Of a DNA stretch of 64,000 bases, positions 21,526-49,564 are shown piece by piece. Position numbers and translations under genes: made by a program. The stretch's first letter is position 1; every line of letters begins with the position of its first letter. The notes beneath the pieces are model-generated. The model worked only from the letters and a program-made list of their open reading frames with translations, did no database searches and was not told the DNA's origin. Origin of the DNA: Anaerolineae bacterium. GTDB lineage: Bacteria; Chloroflexota; Anaerolineae; Aggregatilineales; Phototrophicaceae. The stretch covers positions 26,987 to 90,986 of the forward strand of contig JAJEBK010000018.1 of the NCBI GenBank assembly GCA_022823945.1, written 5' to 3'.

Positions 21526-22833
21526 TTAGCCGTTCCATTGGAGTAATAGAACTTCTTCGCGCAGTTGCTCTTTTGTTACGGTCGAAAAACGTGTGCGGAA
21601 CAGTTCAATGTCAAGGACTTTATATCCCAGTTGTTCGGCGACCTCTGCCAGGATTTCTCCAGTTCGTATCATTATGCGAAAATACGATGCCTGATCACCG
21701 ACAACGTAGGCCAGCTTGGCACCCGGACGCAATAATGTGCGCAGATCTGATAAGTGACGAGCCATTCCTCCAAAATATAATCTAACCACTTTCGCGTACT
21801 GTCTTTCAAATCCCGAAGTCTTCCTCAGTTCTAGTCGACGCTGTTCAATAGAGTCAGCCAGCGCTTGGATTCTAGGTATGTTGGCTACCCAGCTGTGATC
21901 GGAATCAGCTTTGTAGACGCTTCGTGTGTTAGATCGAATGAACTGTTGCTTTTGTCTACGCAAATCTGCGCGGCTCGACAGAAAACCAAGCAATACTGAT
22001 TCGAGACGCGTCGTTCGACTATAATCTTTTTCATTTGGATATGGTGGAGAAGTTATTACGGCGTCAATTGAGCGCGGCTTCAAGCGACTTTGCATTGCCC
22101 TTGCGTCTGCCTTATGCACCGTTGCGGGCGTAAACGGTAGCATGCGAACTTCTTGTAAGTCGCATACCATCATTTCAAGTGCGTCAAGCCACGGTCCAAG
22201 CACAGGCGCATCAGCCTTTAGTTTGCCCACGCCTATCTCTGGGCCGAATCGAAGATTGCTTATTTCTTTCACGGTTTGTTTCGCCAATGCCAATTTCGCG
22301 TGACTCTGCAATCTAGTTTCTTGATACTGATCGATGCAATCCAAAAGCGTTAGTACCTTGTGCAAGGGCAAAGGGCTAATTGAGTTTTTGATTAACAGTC
22401 GGGACTTTTCAGCATCCAATGTGCGAAGTTGCTCAGTGAATACGTTGATTCCAAAGTTGCAACTGTCATATTTTAGCATGGATTCTTGTCGCAACTCACG
22501 AAGTCTGTTAGCGACAGTTTGCCCATATTCGACCAAGAGGCGAGGATCAACATCCCAATCCGTTTTCACCCGCGCAGCAAAGTGCGCCATCGCATTGGCC
22601 TCCACTCCAACACTAGCGATTCCGAGCTTTTTGGCTTCTACGAGGGTTGTGCCAGTACCGCAAAACGGGTCAAGGATAGTTTGACCCTTTGCAAGGTTGA
22701 ATTTCTCAATATAGTCGCGGACCAAATGAGGCGGAAAGGACAATACAAACCTGTACCATTCATGGACAGGTCTGTCCCCCACATATAACCGATTTAGCTC
22801 GTTGCCGTTTTGAAGCTGTGTAGAGTATGCCAT
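21526..22833 (-). CDS. DNA methyltransferase of a type II restriction-modification system
   Basis: About 435 residues. The AdoMet motif LDPFCGTGTTLVEA lies near the N-terminus and the catalytic motif TSPPYPNEKDY far downstream, the order of alpha-type amino-methyltransferases; TSPPY suggests N4-cytosine or N6-adenine methylation. The middle ~200 residues would hold the target-recognition domain. ATG 22833 follows AAGG and replaces the track start at 22908. Base composition is clearly AT-richer than the neighbouring PFK gene, suggesting transfer. Confidence 0.82.
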   Translation of the reverse strand: MAYSTQLQNGNELNRLYVGDRPVHEWYRFVLSFPPHLVRDYIEKFNLAKGQTILDPFCGTGTTLVEAKKLGIASVGVEANAMAHFAARVKTDWDVDPRLLVEYGQTVANRLRELRQESMLKYDSCNFGINVFTEQLRTLDAEKSRLLIKNSISPLPLHKVLTLLDCIDQYQETRLQSHAKLALAKQTVKEISNLRFGPEIGVGKLKADAPVLGPWLDALEMMVCDLQEVRMLPFTPATVHKADARAMQSRLKPRSIDAVITSPPYPNEKDYSRTTRLESVLLGFLSSRADLRRQKQQFIRSNTRSVYKADSDHSWVANIPRIQALADSIEQRRLELRKTSGFERQYAKVVRLYFGGMARHLSDLRTLLRPGAKLAYVVGDQASYFRIMIRTGEILAEVAEQLGYKVLDIELFRTRFSTVTKEQLREEVLLLQWNG

Positions 22834-22911
22834 TTGAACCTTGCAATTGATTAGGACAAATGTACTGCAAGCGCGCGTAAATGGCAAATGATATTCATGA
22901 GAAATCAAAAC

Positions 22912-24087
22912 CTACATCGCTTCACCCAGGCAAATTTCCAGATCGCGGGCGCTGCGCAGCCAGGTATGGTCCAGCGGCACATTCTTGCGCACGCCGACCA
23001 CATCTTCCAGCGGCACGGCGCGCACAACATCGCCATGAATGCCGACCATGATATTGCTTTCGCCAGCAGCGATAAAGTTGGCCGCCGCCGTACCCAGGCG
23101 CGTCGCCAACAAACGGTCTTTGGGCGATGGCACGCCGCCGCGCTGCACATGGCCGAGTATGGTGACGCGCGATTCCAGCCCGGTGCGCTTTTCCAGCTCC
23201 CGCGTTAGCAGCAGGGTGTTGCCACTGCGCTCTTTTTCGATCTTGGCCAGCTCGGCGCGGATAGATTTGCGCATGCGTCTGGCGGCTTTGCTGGCGCTTT
23301 TGTCATCTTGGCAGCGCGCAATTTCGGCATTGGCTTCGGCCAGGCGGAGGCGGGCGTCATGCAGCTTTGCGCCGATTCGCTGTGTCATCGCGCCTTCGGA
23401 AACGGCGACAATGCTGAAACGTTTGCCACCTCGGCTGCGCTCGCGGATAGAATCGGCGATCGCCTCAATATTGAAGGGAATCTCCGGTATCAAGATGACA
23501 TCCGCGCCACCAGCCAGCCCAGCGCCCAGCGCCAGCCAGCCGGTGTTGTGTCCCATGATCTCGCAGACGATGATGCGATGATGGCTGTGCGCTGTGGAAT
23601 GCAGGCGGTCGATGGCATCAGTGGCGATGTTCAGCGCTGTATCAAAGCCGAAAGTCACATCCGTGCCGCTGACATCGTTGTCGATCGTCTTGGGCAGGCA
23701 GACCACATTGATACCGAGCCGGGACAAACGGTGGGCATTTTTGGCTGTGCCACCACCACCCAGACAGACCAGCGCATCCAGATGATGCCGCTCGTAGACC
23801 TCGACCATGACATCTGTCATATTGCGCGACTTGCCGCCGATGGGCATTTTGTGTGGCTTGTCGCGGCTGGTGCCCAGGATCGTGCCGCCCAGTGTGAGGA
23901 TGCCACTGAGATTCTCTGAGCCCAGCCAAATGATGCGATTTTGCATCAAGCCACGAAAGCCATCGCGAAAACCGATCAAGCGCATGCCGTGCTTGTCAAT
24001 CGCCACTTTGCCCACCGCGCGAATGGCGGCATTCAAGCCCGGGCTGTCCCCGCCGGCGGTGAGGATGCCAATCGTCTTTGCGCTCAT
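22912..24087 (-). CDS. pfkA: 6-phosphofructokinase with an altered GGDG motif and a charged insertion
   Basis: 391 residues, longer than the usual 320-360. Clear PFK motifs: [52 protein letters not shown] and [14 protein letters not shown]. The phosphoryl-donor motif, normally GGDG(S/T) for ATP or GGDD for pyrophosphate, reads GGGGT (residues 110-114), confirmed in DNA as GGT GGT GGT GGC ACA. Residues ~239-297 form a highly charged helical insertion ([18 protein letters not shown]...). It should act in glycolysis, but donor preference and activity are uncertain. Confidence 0.85.
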
Positions 24088-24232: not shown

Positions 24233-24793
24233 ATGCCCGTTCTGGAACGGCTGATTGATGCCGATGCCTTTTTGGAGATGCAACTCCTGCCGGAATACCG
24301 GGACAACGAATACGAGTTGATCAATGGAGTGATGGTCGAGATGCCGCCACCAGGATTCGTGCACGGGGAGTATGCAGGGAAGTTATTCCATTATCTATGG
24401 CAATACGCCAGAAAGTATGATTTGGGCAGGGCGAGTGTCGAGGCGGGATTCCGCTCTGCGCGCGACCCGCATATCGTTTTGCGTCCCGATGCCGCATTCC
24501 TGACTCATGCCCGCGCTCAACTGATCCGCGGACGGGGCTTGTCGCCAGTCATGCCCGACTTGGCGGTGGAGATCGCTTCGCCAAGCGATACCCTGTCGGC
24601 AATGCGCGAAAAAGCCGGGCTATACCTGCGCAATGGCATGCGGCTGGTGTGGCTGGTATTCCCGGATGACGAGCGCGTCGAAGTGCACAACAGCAGCGGC
24701 GAGAGCCAGTCCTTGGGCACAAGCGATGCCTTGACCGGCGGCGATGTGCTGCCCGGCTTCCGGCTGGAGCTGGGGAAGCTGTTTTCGCTCTAG
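24233..24793 (+). CDS. Uma2-family (DUF820) PD-(D/E)xK nuclease-like protein, array copy 1
   Basis: 186 residues, usual Uma2 length. Family motifs: YELINGVMVEMPPPG, FRSARDPHIVLRPDAAF (catalytic-type Asp), MPDLAVEIASPSDT (E-x-A/S form of the ExK motif) and KAGLYLRNGMRLVWLVFPDDERVEV. Residues 1-35 and 108-186 are almost identical to the next two copies, while 36-107 differ. Uma2 proteins are nuclease-fold proteins without established roles, often multi-copy in filamentous cyanobacteria and Chloroflexota. Confidence 0.85.
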   Translation: MPVLERLIDADAFLEMQLLPEYRDNEYELINGVMVEMPPPGFVHGEYAGKLFHYLWQYARKYDLGRASVEAGFRSARDPHIVLRPDAAFLTHARAQLIRGRGLSPVMPDLAVEIASPSDTLSAMREKAGLYLRNGMRLVWLVFPDDERVEVHNSSGESQSLGTSDALTGGDVLPGFRLELGKLFSL

Positions 24794-24840
24794 GGCAGTC
24801 GGAATAAAAACAGCGCAAATCAGACAGAAGGGAGACGACC

Positions 24841-25401
24841 ATGCCGGTGCTGGAACGGCTGATTGATGCCGATGCCTTTTTGGAGATGCAACTCCTGCCG
24901 GAATACCGGGACAACGAGTATGAGTTGATCGATGGAGAAATGATCGAGATGCCGCCACCAGGTTTCGTGCATGGAGAGTTTGCTGTAAGGCTGAGTTACT
25001 ACATTCACGCATTTGCCAAAGCTCGCGGGTTAGGCAGGACGACGGTGGAGTCTGGTTTTCGTTCTGCATTCGATTCAAGATTGGTGCTGCGCCCCGATGT
25101 GTCCTTTACAAGGCACGATCGTGCACCAAAGCCTGGCGATCGCGGGCTGAGCGCTGTCATGCCCGATTTGGCGGTGGAGATCGCTTCGCCAAGCGATACC
25201 CTGTCGGCAATGCGCGAAAAAGCCGGGCTATACCTGCGCAATGGCACGCGGCTGGTGTGGCTGGTATTCCCGGATGACGAGCGCGTCGAAGTGCACAGCA
25301 GCAGCGGCGAGAGCCTGTCCCTGGGCATAAGCGAGACTTTGACTGGCGGCGATGTGCTGCTCGGCTTCCGGCTGGAGCTGGAGCGGTTGTTTTCGCTCTA
25401 G
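24841..25401 (+). CDS. Uma2-family protein, array copy 2
   Basis: 186 residues. Same N- and C-terminal segments as copy 1, but its middle (GEFAVRLSYYIHAFAKARGLGRTTVESGFRSAFDSR...) is different, including a changed catalytic-strand context (RPDVSFTRHD). The 47-base spacer before it contains GGGAGACGACC as ribosome-binding region and is repeated before copy 3. The conserved flanks with a divergent centre suggest recombination of the central segment. Confidence 0.85.
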   Translation: MPVLERLIDADAFLEMQLLPEYRDNEYELIDGEMIEMPPPGFVHGEFAVRLSYYIHAFAKARGLGRTTVESGFRSAFDSRLVLRPDVSFTRHDRAPKPGDRGLSAVMPDLAVEIASPSDTLSAMREKAGLYLRNGTRLVWLVFPDDERVEVHSSSGESLSLGISETLTGGDVLLGFRLELERLFSL

Positions 25402-25453
25402 GGCAGGGCAGTCGGAATAAAGACAGCGCAAATCAGACAGAAGGGAGACGACC

Positions 25454-26014
25454 ATGCCGGTGCTGGAACGGCTGATTGATGCCGATGCCTTTTTGGAGAT
25501 GGAACTCCTGCCGGAATACCGGGACAACGAGTATGAGTTGATCGATGGAGAAATGGTAAATATGACTGCACCGGGTATCGGCCATGGACTGCTCGCGGGA
25601 GTGATGTTCATGTTTTTGTGGAATCATGTGACAGAATATGATCTTGGCACGGTTGCGGTAGAAGCAGGCTTTCGCTCTACTCATGACCCACATCTTGTGC
25701 TGCGCCCCGATGTCGCGTTTATAAGTTATGCCGCGCTGCCCAAGAAAGGGCGCAAAGGTTTATCGCCTGTCATGCCAGATTTGGCGGTGGAGATCGCTTC
25801 GCCAAGCGATACCCTGTCGGCACTGCGTGAGAAAACCGGGTTATACCTGCGCAATGGCACGCGGCTGGTGTGGCTGGTATTCCCGGATGACGAGCGCGTC
25901 GAAGTGCACAGCAACAGCGGCGAGCGCCAGTCCCTGGGCATCAACGAGACCTTGACCGGCGGCGATGCGCTGTCCGGCTTCAGGCTGGAGCTGGGGCGGC
26001 TGTTTGCCTTGTGA
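25454..26014 (+). CDS. Uma2-family protein, array copy 3
   Basis: 186 residues. The central segment (NMTAPGIGHGLLAGVMFMFLWNHVTEYDLG...) is again distinct, while the flanks match copies 1 and 2 nearly base for base. PDLAVEIASPSDT and the C-terminal GFRLELGRLFAL are kept. Its TGA overlaps the GTG start of the TrmH-like gene (GTGA), so translation of the two is coupled. Confidence 0.85.
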   Translation: MPVLERLIDADAFLEMELLPEYRDNEYELIDGEMVNMTAPGIGHGLLAGVMFMFLWNHVTEYDLGTVAVEAGFRSTHDPHLVLRPDVAFISYAALPKKGRKGLSPVMPDLAVEIASPSDTLSALREKTGLYLRNGTRLVWLVFPDDERVEVHSNSGERQSLGINETLTGGDALSGFRLELGRLFAL

Positions 26015-26688
26015 GCGGGCCTGTGCCTACCCAAGCGCGCCTGCAAAAGCTGAAACGCGCGGCGAGTCAACGTCAACCTGGCTTGACGATCGTGACTCAA
26101 GATGTCTTCGACCCGCACAACCTGGGCGCGATTGCCCGCAGTTGTGATGCTTTCGGCGTCCAGCACCTGCATGTCATCTTCGAGAGCAGCGACCCATTCG
26201 ACCCCAAGACAATCGGCAAAAACAGCTCTACCGCCACCAACAAATGGTTGCAATACCACACGCATTTCGATAGCGAAAAAGCCTTGCGCTCGTTGAAAAA
26301 CGATGGCTGGCAAGTGGTCGCGACCGTGCTGGACGATGCTGCCGAGTCGCTGTTTGATGCGGATTTTGGTCAGCCTTGCCTGGCCTTGCTGCTGGGAAAC
26401 GAGCGCGACGGACTTTCGCAGCGCGCGCTGGAACTCGCCGACCGGCGCGTAACCATCCCCATGCGCGGCATTGCGCAAAGCCTGAATGTTTCGGTTACGG
26501 CGGCGCTATGCTTGTACGAGATCACACGCCAGCGGCAGGCTCTTTCCCCAGAGCGCCTGCAAAACACAGCCGAGCAGACCACGCAGACCTTGAATTACTT
26601 TCTGGAGATGCACGCGCATTTGGGGCGGCGCAGCAAGCAGCAGCGCAAACTGCGAGCGAAACAGCGACTGTCAAAAAAGCCCCGCTAG
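26011..26688 (+). CDS. TrmH/SpoU-family RNA 2'-O-methyltransferase
   Basis: 225 residues. The three SPOUT motifs are clear: FDPHNLGAIARSCDAFGV, LLGNERDGLS and IPMRGIAQSLNVSVTAAL. Members methylate ribose in tRNA (G18, TrmH) or rRNA; the order and short N-terminus fit TrmH. The C-terminus is strongly basic (RRSKQQRKLRAKQRLSKKPR), probably RNA-binding. It starts at GTG 26011, overlapping the third Uma2 stop, and ends with a 4-base convergent overlap with the DUF3090 gene. Confidence 0.87.
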   Translation: MSGPVPTQARLQKLKRAASQRQPGLTIVTQDVFDPHNLGAIARSCDAFGVQHLHVIFESSDPFDPKTIGKNSSTATNKWLQYHTHFDSEKALRSLKNDGWQVVATVLDDAAESLFDADFGQPCLALLLGNERDGLSQRALELADRRVTIPMRGIAQSLNVSVTAALCLYEITRQRQALSPERLQNTAEQTTQTLNYFLEMHAHLGRRSKQQRKLRAKQRLSKKPR

Positions 26689-27913: not shown

Positions 27914-28062
27914 AAGTGGCTTCGCCGCTGCCAGTGAATTCTCTAGAGCATATCATATTCGCCAGCTCATCGGCTAGCCAGTCTGCGCATAGCCGCCGGT
28001 TGCTGTGTATGATACCAGAGGCGCGGCTCAAGTCGCGCAGTCTGCGCGTCAGGAGAAGAGGC

Positions 28063-28881
28063 ATGCAATTCGCCATCAATTATTCGCCGCAAGCGCTGCA
28101 GCTGTGGCGCGAGGGCTTGATCACAGTCGACCTCTTCAAGTGCCCGGACTGGCCCGACCTGGTCGCCGAGGTCAGCCGCTACCATGCGCTGTATGTGCAT
28201 TGCAGCCTGATTGTCGGGCTGGGAAAGCTGGCAGATGTCGACATGGAGGCGCTGGCTCGCTGGCTGGATACGGGCGAAACGAAAGTCATCAACACACATC
28301 TTGTCGCGTTGCGCTCCACATTTGCGCCCGGCGAACGCGTAGATGCCGACGCCATCGTCTCGCACATCGTCCACGAGCTGGAGCCGCTCTGCAACCGCTT
28401 CGGCGCGGAACGCATCTTGGTCGAAAACCTGACTTGCCCATTGCGCGGCTGGGGCGCAGACCAACTGCCCGCATCAGTCGACCCCGCAGTGATTACGGCA
28501 GTCTGCGAACGCAGCGGCTGCGGCCTCTTGCTCGATCTGGCGCACGCCACGCTCGCTTGTGAAGGCACAGGGCGCGACGATATCCGCGGCTATCTCGATG
28601 CCATGCCCGTGCACAGGCTGCGCGAACTGCATGTAGTCGGCATCCAACCCGAACCCGATGAGCTGGGCATACGCCACGACCACTTCGCCCTGACCGAAAG
28701 CGACTGGGCAATCGCGGAATACGCGCTGGGGCAGATCCGCGCGGGCAAATGGCGGCATCCCGAGCGCATGGCGTTTGAATATGGGGGCATCGGCGAGAGG
28801 TTCGCTTTCCGCAGCGATCCAGCTGTTATGGCAGGGCAGGCTCCGCGTCTTTACGCCCTTGCCAAATCGGCATGTCCATGA
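28063..28881 (+). CDS. DUF692/MNIO-family putative multinuclear iron oxidase
   Basis: 272 residues from ATG 28063 (AGGAGAAGAGG upstream); the track's first 49 residues are rejected. A TIM-barrel with metal-ligand-type motifs in the expected order: YVHCSLIVG, VINTHLV, ILVENLTCP, LLDLAHATLAC, LRELHVVGI and RHDHFALTESDW. DUF692 enzymes (such as MbnB and TglH) use two or three iron ions to modify Cys in ribosomal peptides. No partner protein or Cys-rich precursor was found next to it. The subfamily is uncertain, and a xylose-isomerase-like TIM barrel is the alternative. Confidence 0.6.
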   Translation: MQFAINYSPQALQLWREGLITVDLFKCPDWPDLVAEVSRYHALYVHCSLIVGLGKLADVDMEALARWLDTGETKVINTHLVALRSTFAPGERVDADAIVSHIVHELEPLCNRFGAERILVENLTCPLRGWGADQLPASVDPAVITAVCERSGCGLLLDLAHATLACEGTGRDDIRGYLDAMPVHRLRELHVVGIQPEPDELGIRHDHFALTESDWAIAEYALGQIRAGKWRHPERMAFEYGGIGERFAFRSDPAVMAGQAPRLYALAKSACP

Positions 28882-48952: not shown

Positions 48953-49564
48953 ATGTCCACCGATTTGTTGCTCGAAAAGACGCCGTCCACGCCTGAGGCA
49001 GTTGCTGCCGCCAGCGACTTCGTCACGATCGAAGAATACTTCGCCATTGCAGCTGATGTCGAAGAGCGCATCGAATACATCGACGGGGAAATCTTCTTTA
49101 TGGATGGGGTCACACTTTTTCACAGCAGCATCCAGATCAACATAACCGGTTTTCTCTACAATCAACTTGACGCCACAGATTATGGCATTCACAGCAGCAA
49201 TGTCAGTGTGCATGTCAGTCCGTCCGCCTATTTGTTCCCTGATTTGTGTGTTGTGCGTGGCCCGGGTCTGGTTGCGCGCAGAGGCACGGCGCTGTTGAAT
49301 CCGGTTCTTGTGGTAGAGGTGCTTTCGAAGTCGACAGCGCGCAAAGACCGCGGCATCAAGCTGCAACGCTACCAAGCGATTTCCAGCCTGGAGCATGCGC
49401 TTATCATCGAGCAGGACTTCGTTGCTGTCGAGCATCATCGCCGGGATCGCGGTAATTGGAAACAAGCGACTTACACCTCGCTCGACGACAGTGTGCCGCT
49501 GGGCAGCCTGGGCGCGTCGCTGAGCCTGGCGCAGATCTACCGCGGCATCGAGTTCGCCCCATAA
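48953..49564 (+). CDS. Uma2-family protein, solitary copy
   Basis: 203 residues. Diverged from the three-gene array: EERIEYIDGEIFFMDGVT, YLFPDLCVVRGP (catalytic Asp), PVLVVEVLSKSTARKDRGIKLQRYQAIS with the E-x-L-S-x-S-T form of the active site, and a C-terminal strand. Its retained K (DRGIKLQRY) fits the family. Possibly cotranscribed with the membrane protein 5 bases downstream. Confidence 0.8.
   Translation: MSTDLLLEKTPSTPEAVAAASDFVTIEEYFAIAADVEERIEYIDGEIFFMDGVTLFHSSIQINITGFLYNQLDATDYGIHSSNVSVHVSPSAYLFPDLCVVRGPGLVARRGTALLNPVLVVEVLSKSTARKDRGIKLQRYQAISSLEHALIIEQDFVAVEHHRRDRGNWKQATYTSLDDSVPLGSLGASLSLAQIYRGIEFAP

Follow-up and report, generated by a model that had tools for sequence, protein, structure and literature searches.

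In type I HsdS, recombination brings variable recognition domains into new combinations between segments that are conserved. Uma2 genes are abundant in Cyanobacteria and Thermus, and the function of the family has been guessed to be that of a selfish element or a solo toxin. To our knowledge it has been assigned neither a DNA target nor a cleavage activity, nor any phage phenotype. The type III mod alleles (phasevarions) show 5′ and 3′ regions that are conserved (95%) and a central target-recognition domain that is highly variable (PMC6828955). Tandem cassettes of Uma2 paralogues have already been reported (Feder and Bujnicki, 2005, PMC551604; Makarova, 2009, PMC2701414). A description of Uma2 genes with homogenised ends and exchanged centres was not found in the open-access literature, and since the search was limited to open-access papers the novelty is provisional.

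The array reported here lies in a window of 64,000 nucleotides, the whole stretch of DNA that was analysed, from an Anaerolineae bacterium (contig JAJEBK010000018.1). It matches Uma2 (DUF820, COG4636; PF05685; structures 1wdj, 3ot2, 6okh and 9y1l) in HMM, fold and catalytic residues. The layout is like that of the mod alleles, i.e. conserved ends flank a variable, recombining centre, but this is a likeness and not membership. The mod genes are phase-variable methyltransferase alleles of one locus, whereas here several variants of a small predicted nuclease are found side by side within a single genome. Shuffling of variable domains between conserved segments, as in HsdS, is what is proposed for the Uma2 centres. 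HsdS differs in being a subunit that has two recognition domains and does not itself catalyse; a Uma2 protein, by contrast, is a predicted nuclease made of a single domain, and its variable part overlaps with the active site.

The Uma2 array and its neighbours

The features of the array and its two flanking genes are as follows.

22912..24087, minus strand: phosphofructokinase, left anchor of the site in relatives (Pfam PFK E-value = 1.9e-99; synteny)
24233..24793, plus strand: Uma2 gene A, 186 aa (open reading frame; Pfam Uma2 E-value = 1.1e-30)
24338..24550, plus strand: centre of A, residues 36–106, with the aA helix, His44, Asp86 and the variable loop (block identity, breakpoints 47/105, AlphaFold model of B)
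24551..24945, plus strand: homogenised unit, A residues 107–186 + spacer + B residues 1–35 (identity)
24794..24840, plus strand: spacer A-B, 47 nt, with a purine-rich end resembling a ribosome site
24841..25401, plus strand: Uma2 gene B, 186 aa (Pfam E-value = 3.9e-31; block comparison)
24946..25158, plus strand: centre of B, residues 36–106 (block identity, breakpoints, AlphaFold model)
25159..25558, plus strand: homogenised unit, B end + spacer + C start (identity)
25402..25453, plus strand: spacer B-C, 52 nt
25454..26014, plus strand: Uma2 gene C, 186 aa, with the most divergent centre (Pfam E-value = 3.9e-28)
25559..25771, plus strand: centre of C, residues 36–106 (block identity, breakpoints)
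26011..26688, plus strand: SpoU/TrmH-type RNA methyltransferase, right anchor (Pfam SpoU_methylase E-value = 2.1e-35)

Genes A, B and C are each 561 nt long and their 186 aa products align gap-free. The two spacers are near-identical except for one 5-nt insertion, and within a set of 34 genomes of the genus the A-B spacer is present inside this array only. The stop codon of gene C overlaps the start of the SpoU/TrmH-type methyltransferase gene.

The three products match the Pfam Uma2 profile (PF05685) with 98–108 bits, the cut-off being 27. Uma2 is the sole Pfam match, and neither a DNA methyltransferase nor its specificity subunit is indicated. By these profile matches A, B and C belong to the Uma2 family (PF05685, COG4636), for which the literature predicts nuclease activity. 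A type II toxin-antitoxin module was rejected; there is no adjacent antitoxin gene, the spacers measure 47–52 nt and the neighbours are phosphofructokinase and SpoU.

The window belongs to a genome assembly of 3.5 Mb in which 21 Uma2 genes were counted; the family is thus abundant in some Chloroflexota too. Downstream of the array, at a distance of about 23 kb, there is another single Uma2 gene (window positions 49031–49510; G000:C31:76017-76496). Just beyond the phosphofructokinase (21529–22908, minus strand) a DNA methylase-like protein (N6_N4_Mtase, E-value = 4e-13) is encoded, and positions 27916–28878 (plus strand) show a weak match (E-value = 3e-9) to peptide-modifying enzymes of the MbnB/TglH/ChrH type. 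A Uma2 gene directly upstream of the SpoU/TrmH methyltransferase (26011–26688 in the window) is found in 26 of the 30 genus genomes checked (loci L163-L191). Uma2 and this methyltransferase form a long-lived neighbourhood, which may be a functional one or simply a stable site.

Divergence and predicted structure of the centre

The nucleotide identities of the pairs AB/AC/BC are.93/.92/.99 over residues 1–33, fall to.59/.59/.52 over residues 34–107 and rise again to.94/.88/.90 over residues 108–187. Synonymous changes step likewise. Codons for the same amino acid differ between copies in 47–57% of cases in the centre and 0–16% at the ends; synonymous divergence (pS) is 0–0.23 at the ends and 0.64–0.87, i.e. 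saturated, in the centre (residues ~36–106). A three-segment fit for AB and BC places the edges at 35–47 and 105, with a log-likelihood ratio of 64–74 over uniform divergence. The earlier note had described three tandem Uma2 genes with like ends and unlike centres. Its coordinates and block limits are right by both identity and codon comparison, and nucleotide identity, whose comparison it proposed, changes in steps. Uniform divergence along the genes, or drift that leaves no breakpoints, was named there as the contrary outcome and is ruled out by the block statistics together with the three-segment fit.

The AlphaFold model of gene B (pLDDT 93) displays the Uma2 fold, and a structure search with it gives 1wdj (TM 0.81) and 3ot2 (TM 0.83) as top matches. 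The predicted model has the PD-(D/E)XK restriction-like fold of TT1808. A, B and C all carry His44, Asp86, Glu113 and Lys127, a PD-EXX-K-type active site that includes a conserved His, and these correspond to the catalytic residues given by Feder and Bujnicki (PMC551604); all four residues are found in 122 of 132 Uma2 proteins. The centre includes helix 42–62 with the strand that follows it, the first part of the Asp86 strand, and the loop 92–106. The earlier placement of a catalytic-type Asp in the variable block is correct for Asp86, with the correction that the catalytic His44 is situated there too. Glu113 and Lys127 are in the common end. As the catalytic residues are split in this way, a swapped centre brings its own His44 and Asp86 with the nearby surface, and Glu113 and Lys127 stay on the scaffold.

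Protein entropy is 2.4 bits in helix 42–62 and 2.5 bits in the loop 92–106, and 0.4–1.6 bits in the strands and helix at 110–143. Variability along helix 42–62 has a 100-degree period. The conserved face includes His44, and the opposite face holds positions that rank among the most variable in the protein; this pattern suggests that the variable face is solvent-exposed. Given that one helix face is hypervariable and that a loop next to the active site also varies, it is plausible that the centre is the target-contact surface. A dN/dS above 1 was not found in the centre, where pN/pS is ~0.3–0.7 at saturated pS. The saturation blocks selection tests, and positive selection is therefore not demonstrated.

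Recombination among tandem copies and alleles

Four relatives, G041, G003, G014 and G043, show a single Uma2 gene adjoining the same SpoU gene at the same site, and in three of the four the same phosphofructokinase is detected as well. Between the window and related species the flanking genes have a pS of 0.14–0.37. The ends, with a pS of 0–0.23, therefore have a recent history that is not common to the centres with their 0.64–0.87; since the flanking genes differ by just 0.14–0.37 between species, the centres either predate that recent history or come from outside it. The PHI test for recombination (A, B and C with four orthologues) gives p = 0.0005. In the AU test the ends do not reject a single clade of A, B and C (p = 0.21), but the centre does (p = 0.0005); within the centre, the trees of its two halves conflict.

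The single-copy centres of the four relatives are mosaics. The centre type of B is that of the single orthologue in G041, of the first half in G003 and of the second half in G014, and the G003 centre is B-like at ~25–78 and A-like at ~85–108. The pair G000:C51 of the window genome displays two centre types, whose nearest matches are found singly in G014 and G003. No close donor of the A and C centres appeared among the genomes searched. An import of these centres from another Uma2 site in the window genome is unsupported, same-site alleles being nearly always closest. A viral source was likewise set aside, as gene C had no relative among the viral contigs scanned.

Neighbouring genes have clearly converted each other's ends: centres that are orthologous are joined to different C ends from species to species, and it is neighbours that combine near-identical ends with divergent centres. 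Loci L082 and L100 form an orthologous two-gene site with collinear flanks in which the centres stand in opposite order. Between the two genomes these centres are 94–100% alike in most windows, and the tails (residues 169–186, the last 18) track position. In the L107 pair, residues 39–74 have a pS of.61 and the remainder has a pS of.06 and a pN of 0; this is a foreign block of roughly 36 codons in otherwise near-identical genes. Recombination between tandem copies and between alleles has homogenised the ends and exchanged old centres. The earlier note had offered gene conversion of the ends and exchange of the middle as alternatives, and both apply. Conversion is seen in neighbours having common ends that their orthologues do not have, and exchange in the swapped order in L082/L100, the mosaic single-copy centres and the L107 block.

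The centres are nearly always nearest to alleles of the same site, and the pool of centres is thus largely site-specific. The centre of L223:152 (G043, site 1) is nearer to site 0 alleles (61% aa identity) than to those of its own site (51%), and its C end is protein-identical to that of its neighbour. By these identities a cross-site transfer is possible, and it would be the one clear exception to site-specific pools. L245:1161 is a weaker second cross-site case (45% vs 41%).

The contrast between ends and centre could also arise neutrally. A tolerant centre would drift past the similarity needed for recombination, the constrained ends would keep converting, diversity would not be selected for, and the centre would have no role in specificity. 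Entropy in helix 42–62 and the loop 92–106 above that of the C-block core agrees with this, and conversion that halts at diverged stretches would give sharp edges for free. The centre pN/pS is below 1, and as no value above 1 is seen this model is kept as a rival. However, it does not lead one to expect that the L082/L100 centres changed places as units with position-specific tails retained, that G003 joins a B-like to an A-like half, that centres were replaced at sites 5 and 7, which are now single-copy, or that unrelated sites show similar edges. Moved centres and recurrent borders make the neutral account less likely, and it is regarded as unlikely.

From the loci collected, 38 adjacent same-strand Uma2 pairs were obtained, nearly all from this genus. 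The centre pS exceeds the ends pS in 35 of them (median.68 vs.43; Wilcoxon p = 8e-9, a pair-level value in which pairs of the same site from different species are not independent). Averaging per site, with sites defined by common flanks, takes out most of the non-independence, and the centre still exceeds the ends at 8/8 multi-copy chromosomal sites (site means, Wilcoxon p = 0.008). Unrelated Uma2 pairs show hardly any contrast (.74 centre vs.70 ends). Only the first end is homogenised in L087, L083 and L100, only the last in L010 and L071, and both in some other pairs. Breakpoints cluster at residues 33–49 on the left and at 63–76 or 102–106 on the right. Six Chloroflexota pairs from outside the genus were usable, and three of these have near-identical first ends and divergent centres; in two of the three, L264 and L265, both ends are near-identical. 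The pattern is thus found genus-wide and in other families of Chloroflexota, and is not peculiar to this array.

Uma2 copy numbers at fixed sites vary between close species. This would fit selfish, recombinogenic nucleases that cut near themselves, tandem duplication and mosaicism being by-products of their own breaks, and break-induced tandem duplication has been proposed for COG4636 (Feder and Bujnicki, 2005, PMC551604). The sites, however, are conserved in the genus and not erratic (26/30 at SpoU; 8 multi-copy sites, several common to genomes), and self-cutting leaves the recurrence of edges at the same residues unexplained. A selfish origin of the pattern is considered very improbable.

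All genomes used here are assemblies, and the relatives compared are metagenome-assembled Chloroflexota/Anaerolineae. Identical ends are a classic place for chimeras in such assemblies, and an assembler could have merged strains with different centres there. This is hardly credible, given that the tandem spacer junctions are absent from single-copy relatives, that separate assemblies have centre types in common, and that the pattern is displayed by many genomes from different projects and assemblers, including pairs with resolvable ends.

Possible function of the exchanged centre

The reading given moderate confidence is that the array consists of a common nuclease scaffold with different central modules, maintained by recombination, in which the centre would act as a recognition element. 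Homologous recombination among tandem copies and same-site alleles homogenises the ends, and also moves whole or half centres (residues ~36–106, with a frequent internal edge at ~63–76). As this pattern recurs at all eight multi-copy Uma2 sites examined in the genus, the middle of the protein is probably an exchangeable element for recognition. The centre would recognise target DNA or, less likely, a partner. Selection may favour different centres within one cell, and each array would then be a limited set of nuclease specificities, for which foreign DNA is the most plausible target.

A variable centre could instead be a surface for recognition of self or of a partner, where tandem copies diverge so as to avoid mixed dimers or to match cognate inhibitors and not to read different DNA targets. 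The variability sits on one helix face, and the paralogues co-occur as neighbours, so that a dimeric protein would be likely to form cross-dimers if nothing prevented it. However, the centres differ between species at single-copy sites too, where there is no neighbour to avoid, and the 47–52-nt spacers hold no candidate inhibitor gene. A partner surface is considered quite improbable.

For a role in defence there is no more than a lead. Its bases are weak matches to the PADLOC candidate profile PDC-S03 (E-value = 5e-14 for A, 1e-13 for B and 3e-13 for C; 48–50 bits), candidate profiles being supplied with no cut-off, and a paper in which COG4636 is listed with the restriction endonucleases that Tn7-like elements carry (PMC8649781). 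The name PDC-S03 retrieved no papers in the open-access literature search. The array sits among housekeeping-type genes with no obvious defence island.

An extension to the multi-copy Uma2 sites of Chloroflexota, as recombining repertoires of small nucleases with several target specificities in which a module of 70 or 36 residues is exchanged, is put forward tentatively and is rather doubtful. The reproducible module border and the position-swapped centres show where the specificity of Uma2 should be sought. Natural chimeras, i.e. A, B and C and the L107 pair, whose members are almost the same outside residues 39–74, make the question of specificity testable. If the extension to the Chloroflexota sites is true, these arrays would be a nuclease counterpart of the recognition-domain shuffling of mod and HsdS, and a large orphan family would gain a function.
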